NCBI RefSeq assembly: GCF_000621545.1
Contig: NZ_JHYA01000003.1
Coordinates: 62,001 to 126,000, forward strand
DNA: 64,000 bases
Direction: 5' to 3'
DNA from: Anaerovibrio lipolyticus LB2005
Lineage (GTDB): Bacteria > Bacillota > Negativicutes > Selenomonadales > Selenomonadaceae
Shown piece by piece: positions 46,718-62,758 of the stretch (positions are counted from its first letter, which is position 1; every line of letters starts with the position of its first letter). A program made the position numbers and the translations under genes. A model generated the notes under the pieces. That model made no database searches. It had not been told where the DNA came from and saw nothing but the letters and a program-made list of their open reading frames with translations.

Positions 46718-47998
46718 TTACACTGCTGCAAAGGCCTGATCCAGGTCAGCGATGATATCATCAATATGCTCAGTACCGATGGAGAGGCGAATGGTGCTGC
46801 GACTGATACCTACATCAGCCAACTCCTCATCAGTGAGCTGGGAATGGGTGGTGGTAGCTGGATGAATAACCAGAGACTTCACATCAGCAACATTTGCAAG
46901 GAGGGAGAAAATCTTCAGATTATCAATGAACCTGAAGGCCTCCTCCTGGCCGCCCTTAATCTCAAATGTAAAGATAGAGCCGCCACCATTAGGGAAGTAC
47001 TTCTGATAGAGAGCATGATCCGGATGCTCTGGCAGGCTTGGATGATTAACCTTCGTTACCTTAGGATTCTTTACGAGGTAATCAATAACCTTTTTGGTGT
47101 TTTCCGCGTGACGCTCCAGGCGGAGAGACAGAGTCTCAGTGCCCTGCAACAGCAAAAATGCTGCAAAAGGAGAGATAGTTGCGCCCTGATCACGGAGCAA
47201 AATAGCGCGAATGTAGATAGCGAATGCAGCCTTGCCGGCAGCCTCAGTAAACTTTACGCCGTGGTAACTAGGATTTGCCTCGGAAATCCAAGGATACTTA
47301 CCACTCTTTGCCCAGTCAAAGTTACCGCTGTCCACGATAACACCGCCAAGAGTTGTACCATGACCGCCAATAAACTTGGTAGCAGAATGAACAACAATAT
47401 CTGCGCCATGCTCAATAGGGCGGATAAGGTATGGAGTGCCGAAGGTGTTATCAATTACCAGAGGCAGGCCGTGCTTGTGAGCCAGCTTGGCAATGGCATC
47501 AATATCCGGAATATCGGAGTTTGGATTGCCCAGAGTCTCAATGTAGATAGCCTTGGTGTTTTCCTGAATAGCGCCCTCAATTTCCTTTAAATTATGAGCA
47601 TCCACAAAGGTGGTCTCGATACCGTACAGTGGCAGGGTATGTGCCAGAAGGTTAGCGGAACCGCCGTAAATGGTCTTCTGGGCTACAATGTGCTCACCGG
47701 CCTTTGCCAGAGCCTGAATTGTATAGGTGATAGCCGCTGCGCCAGAAGCCAGAGCCAGACCAGCCACACCACCCTCCAATGCAGCGATTCTTTCCTCAAA
47801 AACGCCCTGAGTGGAATTGGTAAGGCGGCCATATATATTTCCTGCATCAGCAAGGCCGAAGCGATCAGCTGCGTGCTGGGAATTACGGAATACATAAGAG
47901 GTAGTTGCGTAAATTGGTACTGCTCTTGCATCAGATGCTGGATCTGGGTTCTCCTGACCTACGTGAAGCTGAAGTGTTTCAAATTTGTAGTTGCTCAT
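46718..47998 (-). CDS. metY: O-acetylhomoserine aminocarboxypropyltransferase/cysteine synthase
   Basis: A 426-residue pyridoxal-phosphate enzyme of the Cys/Met metabolism family that makes homocysteine from O-acetylhomoserine and sulfide. Family segments include LQLHVGQENPDP, YGRLTNSTQ, ALEGGVAGLALASGAAA, the PLP Lys in HSATKFIGGHG and the C-terminal HPATTTHSQL. The ATG at 47998 has AAAGGAG at 8 bases; the frame stays open into the leader but that part has no ribosome site. It has a long leader of about 285 bases with a Cys-rich small ORF and a terminator, and a divergent Rrf2 gene, so sulfur-responsive control is likely. Confidence 0.95.
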   Translation of the reverse strand: MSNYKFETLQLHVGQENPDPASDARAVPIYATTSYVFRNSQHAADRFGLADAGNIYGRLTNSTQGVFEERIAALEGGVAGLALASGAAAITYTIQALAKAGEHIVAQKTIYGGSANLLAHTLPLYGIETTFVDAHNLKEIEGAIQENTKAIYIETLGNPNSDIPDIDAIAKLAHKHGLPLVIDNTFGTPYLIRPIEHGADIVVHSATKFIGGHGTTLGGVIVDSGNFDWAKSGKYPWISEANPSYHGVKFTEAAGKAAFAIYIRAILLRDQGATISPFAAFLLLQGTETLSLRLERHAENTKKVIDYLVKNPKVTKVNHPSLPEHPDHALYQKYFPNGGGSIFTFEIKGGQEEAFRFIDNLKIFSLLANVADVKSLVIHPATTTHSQLTDEELADVGISRSTIRLSIGTEHIDDIIADLDQAFAAV

Positions 47999-48075: not shown

Positions 48076-48105
48076 AAAAAACCGGGGCTTTATCCAAGCT
48101 CCCGG
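48076..48105 (-). terminator. Attenuator terminator in the metY leader
   Basis: On the minus strand CCGGGAGCTT pairs with AAGCCCCGG (one bulged A), 5-base loop, followed by six T. It lies 77 bases upstream of the metY start, so it would stop transcription before the gene. Confidence 0.8.
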
Positions 48106-48176
48106 GCAAATGGCAACACAATCAGCTGCAACTCAAAGAAGACGAATGCAACTGGCCATAATTACATGCCCGGGAG
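48099..48176 (-). promoter_or_regulatory. Candidate antiterminator of the metY leader
   Basis: CTCCCGGGC (48168-48176, inside the leader ORF) is fully complementary to GCCCGGGAG (48099-48107). The second segment shares most of its bases with the 5' arm of the terminator (48096-48105), so the two structures exclude each other. A further ATGGC/GCCAT pair can extend the helix. Confidence 0.6.
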
Positions 48177-48232
48177 TTACACATTCGACAAACCCATGCT
48201 GCTGTCTTACAAGTGTTGTTTACTCCATACAT
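48122..48232 (-). CDS. Candidate 36-residue Cys-rich leader peptide of metY
   Basis: A short ORF beginning MYGVNNTCKTAAW and ending LSCS contains five Cys codons (residues 8, 15, 18, 23 and 35) out of 36. An AGGAG site lies 9 bases before the ATG; an in-frame ATG at 48241 overlaps it. The ORF ends 17 bases before the terminator region and covers one arm of the antiterminator. This matches ribosome-mediated attenuation by cysteine supply, since the downstream enzyme uses sulfide and belongs to cysteine/methionine metabolism. Translation is inferred only. Confidence 0.55.
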   Translation of the reverse strand: MYGVNNTCKTAAWVCRMCNSRACNYGQLHSSSLSCS

Positions 48233-48288
48233 AGCATTCATCTCCTTTCTTGAATCCTTAACTTTGTTTGCTCAATTTCGATGTCTAT

Positions 48289-48317
48289 ATATTAAACCTA
48301 TATGCCTACTATGTCAA
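48289..48317 (-). promoter_or_regulatory. Sigma-70 promoter of the metY leader
   Basis: A perfect TTGACA and TAATAT are separated by 17 bp on the minus strand. Transcription would start near 48282, giving a leader of about 285 bases before metY. Confidence 0.7.
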
Positions 48318-48355
48318 TAGGTAAAATAAAAAATTATTTGAAATTCATTTTATAT

Positions 48356-48406: not shown

Positions 48407-48823
48407 ATGATTTCAACAAAAGGAAGATATGCCGTTCGCTTTATGATAGACATGGCCCAGCAGCCTGATGACAAACCCGTTACCCTTGATGAGGTTGCCC
48501 AGCGCCAGGAGGTTTCCAAGAAATATATGGAACGCGTAGTTAAAATGCTGGTCAGTGCCGGACTGGTGAAGGGAACCAGTGGCAAGGGCGGTGGTTATCG
48601 CCTCCTGCGCAAGCCCGAGGAATATAACGTTATGGAAATCCTTCAGGTCACCGAAGGCCGTCTCACCTCTGTTGCCTGTCTGCAGGAAGGCGCTGAGGAA
48701 TGCCCACGGGAAGCAAAATGTCTCACCCTGCCAATGTGGAAGCTCTTTGATGAAATGGTGAAGGATTTTTTCACCAACATCACCATTGCTGACCTTCTCA
48801 AAGGGCACGAGCAAAACTTATAA
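48407..48823 (+). CDS. Rrf2-family transcriptional regulator
   Basis: A 138-residue Rrf2 protein with an N-terminal winged helix (MISTKGRYAVRFMIDMAQ, EVSKKYMERVVKML, KGGGYRLLRKPEEYNV) and a C-terminal part with three cysteines in ACLQEGAEECPREAKC, the spacing used by IscR-like members to bind an iron-sulfur cluster. CymR, the cysteine repressor, is in the same family but lacks them. Being divergent from metY, it probably controls sulfur assimilation and senses cluster or sulfur status; this is inference. GGAGG lies 7 bases before the ATG. Confidence 0.92.
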   Translation: MISTKGRYAVRFMIDMAQQPDDKPVTLDEVAQRQEVSKKYMERVVKMLVSAGLVKGTSGKGGGYRLLRKPEEYNVMEILQVTEGRLTSVACLQEGAEECPREAKCLTLPMWKLFDEMVKDFFTNITIADLLKGHEQNL

Positions 48824-62459: not shown

Positions 62460-62640
62460 GTAGGTCAAACGGTGATTGTTAATTAGGCAGTTCTCCTGGC
62501 TCCGGATCATGGCTCCTCTGCTCCTTCCCAGGTTTCCCCAGTGGCATTAACTGCAGATTCGCTTCCCGATACAGTGGCGTGACCGCGCCGGCATCTAACC
62601 GGCTTTTCTATTAAGTCTTGCGACACCTAACCCTTTATTC
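62460..62640 (-). promoter_or_regulatory. Cobalamin (AdoCbl) riboswitch
   Basis: On the minus strand the region contains the classical elements: GGTGTCGCAAGAC near the 5' end, GCCGGTTAGATGCCGGCGCG followed by GTCACGCCACTGTAT, and the B12 box AGCCAGGAGAACTGCC (62486-62501). Together with the downstream terminator it would switch off the BtuF-like and TonB-receptor genes when cobalamin is abundant. Confidence 0.9.
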
Positions 62641-62758
62641 TGTTGTTTTCAAATACATTCCTCATGGTATCATCAGACGAATTTATTGTCAATGCAAAAT
62701 ATAATTAACAATTATATATCATAAAATATTATTTTATTTTGGTACAAAGGTCCCGTAA

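Follow-up and report, generated by a model that had tools for sequence, protein, structure and literature searches.

A candidate ribosome-mediated attenuator with Cys and Met sensor codons ahead of metY and other sulfur genes in Anaerovibrio and Clostridia

Introduction

How is metY controlled in Anaerovibrio lipolyticus LB2005, where the gene is preceded by a leader that holds a Cys-rich reading frame and a terminator? We addressed this question in a 64,000-nucleotide stretch of contig NZ_JHYA01000003.1 (hereafter the window). The original prediction was of a sulfur-responsive attenuator based on a leader peptide and not on a riboswitch, and this is still the best reading of the sequence; the regulatory response is what we infer from it. 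Leader-peptide attenuation is usually linked to Proteobacteria and Actinobacteria. According to a 2010 study, no amino-acid leader peptides were known beyond these two groups before its own hisS case (PMC2965389). In Clostridium, cysteine T-boxes give rise to premature termination when cysteine is ample (PMC2940859).

Results

All features described below lie on the minus strand of the window unless stated otherwise. The downstream gene (46718..47998) is of the metY type and encodes an O-acetylhomoserine aminocarboxypropyltransferase (TIGR01326, 624.7 bits against a cut-off of 495.1). Upstream of the leader, a sigma-70-type promoter (48289..48317) is present as predicted, with TTGACA (48317-48312) separated by a 17-nt spacer from TAATAT (48294-48289). 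The leader-peptide ORF MYGVNNTCKTAAWVCRMCNSRACNYGQLHSSSLSCS (48122..48232) has 36 codons, five of them for Cys, and the ribosome site AAAGGAG upstream. An intrinsic terminator (48076..48105), comprising a hairpin (48105-48082, dG -14.3 kcal/mol) and a T6 tract (48081-48076), is located 77 nt before the metY ATG (47998), again in agreement with the prediction.

The proposed switch depended on a stretch of the ORF, CTCCCGGGCA (48167..48176), that was said to be complementary to TGCCCGGGAG (48099..48108), which overlaps the 5' arm of the terminator. The two strands are indeed fully complementary over 10 bp, and when the 202-nt leader was shuffled 300 times with its dinucleotides preserved, only 2 shuffles contained a perfect 10-bp inverted repeat. 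This helix, P1, has its 5' strand at a fixed position after a CGA codon and covaries in relatives. Two additional antiterminator helices had been overlooked: P2, formed by ATGGC (48155..48159) and GCCAT (48110..48114), and the hairpin P3, formed by GTTGCA (48147..48152) and TGCAGC (48125..48130), the latter immediately ahead of the stop codon. Both covary in relatives; P2, for example, is replaced by ATGAC:GTCAT or TTGGC:GCCAA. Antiterminator and terminator share the strand 48105-48099 and both structures covary, which bears out the view that they are mutually exclusive.

Relatives were collected by a pattern scan of about 85,000 genomes, after which a covariance model, R1, was built for the element. 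The scan returned 31 loci, 21 of which were judged real and have the full layout, many being clostridial and located ahead of metY or genes for amino-acid ABC transporters; the other 10 were rejected as chance matches that lack a promoter, SD or terminator or lie within large unrelated genes. A looser pattern search in the family gave mainly chance matches inside genes. The covariance model produced 103 matches in all, the weakest few being doubtful (L206, L213 and L225 among them), and scan and model together gave some 100 different leaders with this arrangement, from Anaerovibrio, Schwartzia and many Clostridia. In an alignment of 100 distinct sequences, 92.8% of the antiterminator cells pair and 19 of the 21 pairs are changed on both sides. 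Cells changed on both sides number 171, compared with 49.3 +/- 6.3 in shuffles (0/500 reaching this value) and 15-52 in slid controls. This alignment was fitted to the structure; an unfitted MAFFT alignment of 18 sequences gave the same outcome on a smaller scale (16 doubly changed cells versus 6.0, 0/500). The interior of the antiterminator varies in length and sequence, and a terminator with a T-tract is present in 83/85 relatives. Both the ORF and the alternative pairing are conserved far outside the genus. Together with the lack of an Rfam match (below), this means that neither of the outcomes named beforehand as refuting the original prediction was seen.

Several features of the ORF indicate that it is a translated-looking frame. 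An SD and an ATG occur in the reading frame of a CGA-ATG codon pair in 80/85 leaders (8 and 0 for the other frames), the start lying mostly 15 or 16 codons ahead of CGA, and among five Anaerovibrio leaders the sole differences in the 14 codons before CGA are three synonymous codons. The CGA-ATG pair itself (48182..48187) is near-invariant, CGAATG being present in 85/100 leaders. The codon directly before it, TGT in the window (48188..48190), encodes Cys in 57/85 relatives, and the codon one further ahead does so in 56/85. Cys occurs somewhere in the five codons preceding CGA in 68/85 leaders; a set of 15 leaders, referred to here as class 2, falls outside this control-codon pattern. The window leader, which belongs to class 1, has a single Cys at the sensor position, and CC or CCC is common in its relatives. 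The predicted stall at a Cys codon is kept, with the site moved: it had been placed at the first Cys codon (48211-48209), and the conserved sensor is the codon at 48190-48188. Cys codons also make up only part of the proposed sensor, as the run in relatives mixes Cys and Met. Met is the next commonest residue after Cys at the sensor positions in class 1, and a leader before a MetQ-type gene (L182) has Met-Met-Met, using Met codons alone as its sensor run.

The Arg before ATG is encoded by CGA in 85 of 88 Arg cases, a share somewhat inflated because sequences with CGAATG had served to build the search model; in the downstream genes CGA makes up 3% of Arg codons. Our guess is that CGA acts as a pause codon that holds ribosome and polymerase in step. 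We also considered a conserved hairpin in which CGAATG, as segment 1, would pair with a downstream CATTCG. A perfect CATTCG is located 28-75 nt downstream in 14/85 leaders (0.8 expected), or in 32/85 with G-U pairs allowed (11.5 expected). This candidate was set aside, as the matches come mostly from one subgroup and ensemble folding revealed no conserved family-wide partner for CGAATG. A classical anti-antiterminator, or 1:2 pairing, was not found as a conserved element among the family leaders; in Anaerovibrio, a pairing of the ribosome site with a downstream segment (see Discussion) is a candidate for such a part. NCBIfam has no model for the leader peptides.

The geometry of these elements is notably constant in the family. 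P1 starts 11 nt past the C of CGA in 83/85 leaders. If the A site holds the codon that precedes CGA, the edge of a standard ribosome footprint falls right before P1. Folding was then limited to RNA that a ribosome has not yet reached. For a stall at the sensor codon this favoured the antiterminator in 83/83 leaders of classes 1 and 2. For a ribosome that has arrived at the stop codon it gave the terminator in 80/83, a result that is nearly trivial because P1 is then behind the ribosome. Folding of the ribosome-free leader gave the antiterminator in 54/85 and the terminator in 34/85.

From the ORF, the sensor codons at a fixed distance from the antiterminator and the terminator sharing the P1 3' strand, we consider it highly likely that the element is a ribosome-mediated transcription attenuator, through which metY would be transcribed when charged tRNA-Cys runs short, or, for other members of the family, tRNA-Met as well. 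In this scheme, a shortage of Cys-tRNA would stall the ribosome when its A site holds the Cys codon that precedes CGA. The front of the ribosome would lie just ahead of CTCCCGGGCA, allowing P1-P2-P3 to fold once TGCCCGGGAG has been made, and the folded antiterminator would block the terminator and permit transcription of metY. When Cys-tRNA is plentiful, the ribosome would pass P1 and P2 and reach the stop codon behind P3, where it would occupy the strands of the antiterminator, or hold them apart, as the terminator arm appears; the terminator could then form and transcription would end before metY.

The original prediction held that a ribosome at the stop codon covers one arm of the switch, and here it needs correction. 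The stop codon is always upstream of the 3' strands (median 24 nt), and the ribosome at this position would therefore act by opening P3 and moving the strands apart. The ribosome at the window's stop codon extends to about 48112, covering P3 and the edge of P2 and neither of the main arms. Since the P1 strands are left uncovered, exclusion of P1 would depend on steric separation.

Could a different kind of regulator explain the same conservation? An extensive conserved RNA fold with invariant nucleotides is seen here, as is an expression platform, and both would suit a metabolite-binding riboswitch with an incidental ORF. However, the reading frame, SD and sensor codons are conserved, the antiterminator interior is variable in length and sequence, and Rfam provides no match. 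In particular, no T-box or SAM riboswitch model matches the window leader at the gathering score, or seven related loci when E values of up to 1 were allowed, nor does any other Rfam family, in line with the earlier remark that T-box and S-box features are missing. We regard a riboswitch as very improbable. (The only Rfam match in the window is a cobalamin riboswitch elsewhere, at 62469-62645.) The conserved core CRMCxSRA and a terminator directly after the ORF might instead point to a functional Cys-rich small protein, followed by an ordinary terminator and a fortuitous repeat. Against this, the peptide is hardly conserved outside the core and most relatives have lost the Cys that follows Met; moreover, the complementarity covaries and the leader is nearly always in cis to sulfur genes. 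We give this explanation next to no credence.

A third alternative is nascent-peptide arrest, in which the peptide rather than a tRNA shortage would sense a sulfur metabolite (through R-M, or NFR[C/F]GRM in class 2) and the position of arrest would set the fold. The class 2 leaders (L132:970-1105, L142, L143, L144, L189, L191-L195, L197, L199, L200, L202 and L222) are found mainly before metY and have the same antiterminator, with the peptide LLRxNFR[C/F]GRM and without a Cys or Met run. Their wobble bases vary freely while the residues stay fixed. In this, class 2 fits the conservation independent of codons that a TnaC-type arrest peptide would show, which class 1, including the window, does not clearly do; class 2 may possibly be an arrest peptide. 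For the family as a whole, the nearly invariant R-M of both classes and the retention of LLRxNFR[C/F]GRM in class 2 favour arrest. On the other hand, class 1 residues ahead of R-M are free except for being Cys or Met, as codon sensing predicts, and it is CGA rather than Arg that is conserved, which suggests a role for the codon or the RNA. Overall, arrest throughout the family appears improbable to us. A combined reading, in which a single switch with the same CGA-ATG and P1-P2-P3 takes interchangeable sensors (tRNA supply via Cys/Met codons in class 1, nascent-peptide arrest by a sulfur metabolite in class 2), is a tentative option to which we give perhaps one chance in a few. If it is true, CGA-ATG would be a built-in ribosome-positioning element for both classes.

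The element is unevenly distributed. Matches to the covariance model were obtained in 39/299 genomes of the family of Clostridium fessum, in 23/250 and 5/58 genomes of two further clostridial families, and in 11/156 genomes of the order of C. fessum. Only 6/260 Negativicutes genomes have it, and in a phylum-wide sample the single match (1/169) is the genome on which the sample was centred. Among the Negativicutes, where the comparison of metY upstream regions had been proposed, most such regions lack the switch; the relatives are mainly Clostridia. Judged by these occurrences, the element belongs to the Clostridia and is scattered among Negativicutes, where it is likely to have arrived by horizontal transfer. 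The leader is nearly identical among several Anaerovibrio genomes. A diverged version (...MMCCRMCSSRAF...) that also ends in a terminator of its own occurs in other species of the genus (L102, L113, L114). Further ones encode short Cys peptides of another kind, with no terminator behind them, or lack such a peptide. One Anaerotignum genome contains four copies of the leader.

Genes behind the leaders are mostly sulfur-related, with a metY-like cluster in 53/97 cases, amino-acid/Met ABC transporter subunits in 27, cysK in 3 and cysE in 1; cystine/methionine transporter genes are included. In Schwartzia-type genomes, the same layout precedes a DUF1847 gene and CTCCCAGGCA faces TGCCTGGGAG, a compensated change. 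The DUF1847 gene shares both leader and operator (L103, L115; also L016, L021), a hint that it may function in sulfur metabolism. Genes for a glycyl-radical enzyme and for glutathione-transferase-like and cyclase-like proteins are also found behind the leader (L173, L210, L212, L207) and are candidates for new sulfur functions. Separately, other metY leaders in the family have short Cys peptides (FVMCRK, SCRMCCCTYSYC, RMCCCSMAA) without a terminator (L034-L036, L029, L046), perhaps reflecting Rho-dependent or translational control.

The leader promoter probably has a second, Rrf2-type layer of control beneath attenuation. The -35 block CCTATTGAC is kept in most class 1 relatives, and CYTATTGAC is present at the -35 position in 52/68 class 1 leaders, as CCTATTGACATAGTAGG or a close variant. 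In the window, CCTATTGACATAGTAGG (48305..48321) spans the -35 element and is likely to be the operator of a presumed Rrf2/CymR-type repressor. A divergent gene on the plus strand (48407..48823) encodes an Rrf2-family regulator (PF02082, 1.8e-36), a candidate partner for the promoter, which scores below the IscR and CymR equivalog cut-offs. Analogy with CymR suggests repression under ample cysteine. Relatives also have a similar Rrf2/CymR-like DNA motif ahead of cysK, of an iscS-like gene and of a pair of peptidase and permease genes (L020, L015, L012, L017, L019).

Discussion

The element described here would work like trp-type attenuators and other Cys-codon leaders, and differs from them in its sequence, gene set, mixed Cys/Met sensing and fixed CGA-ATG ruler. 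It shares with trp- and his-type attenuators the control codons and an antiterminator and terminator with a common arm; here, however, no conserved 1:2 pairing was found and a near-invariant CGA-ATG follows the control codons. Compared with the cysteine T-boxes, the genes are similar and the predicted outcome is the same, but T-boxes lack an ORF and bind the tRNA itself, and none was detected here. A close description is that of uORFC-8-2 before cysS in Rhodobacterales, a predicted ribosome-mediated attenuator with tandem Cys near codons 14-15 and an intrinsic terminator (PMC8632094). Both are predicted Cys-codon attenuators with an intrinsic terminator, and in our leaders CGA comes mostly after 15-16 codons. 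By its description, uORFC-8-2 is set apart by its phylum, its restriction to cysS and the lack of any reported CGA-ATG, Met codons or P1-P2-P3.

Short Cys-codon ORFs acting as cysteine-responsive attenuators of sulfur genes are also known from mycobacteria (polycysteine short ORFs; Canestrari et al. 2020, cited in PMC9094748) and from actinobacterial cys leaders (PMC1262725). The mycobacterial ORFs are reported to be leaderless; their Cys run lies close to the stop codon, and a terminator was not found there, whereas the metY leader is SD-led and has an intrinsic terminator. The window ORF does not look leaderless, as its start codon follows an SD and is separated from the -10 box by >50 nt. 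In Rfam and the literature searched, mostly papers available without subscription, we encountered related ideas and no description of this element.

If correct, the attenuator would provide cysteine/methionine control of a whole sulfur regulon without a T-box or SAM riboswitch in gut and rumen Clostridia and some Negativicutes. It would tie DUF1847, a glutathione-transferase-like protein and a glycyl-radical enzyme to sulfur metabolism, and its spacing offers a tight natural ruler for the required position of the stalled ribosome. A further pairing was observed in Anaerovibrio, where the ribosome site AAAGGAGATGAATGC (48248-48234) can pair with GCATTCGTCTTCTTT inside the ORF (48149-48135). Such a pairing would make the ribosome site inaccessible and tie up the P1 arm. 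In L089 both partners are altered in a matching way, GGATGC facing GCGTCC.
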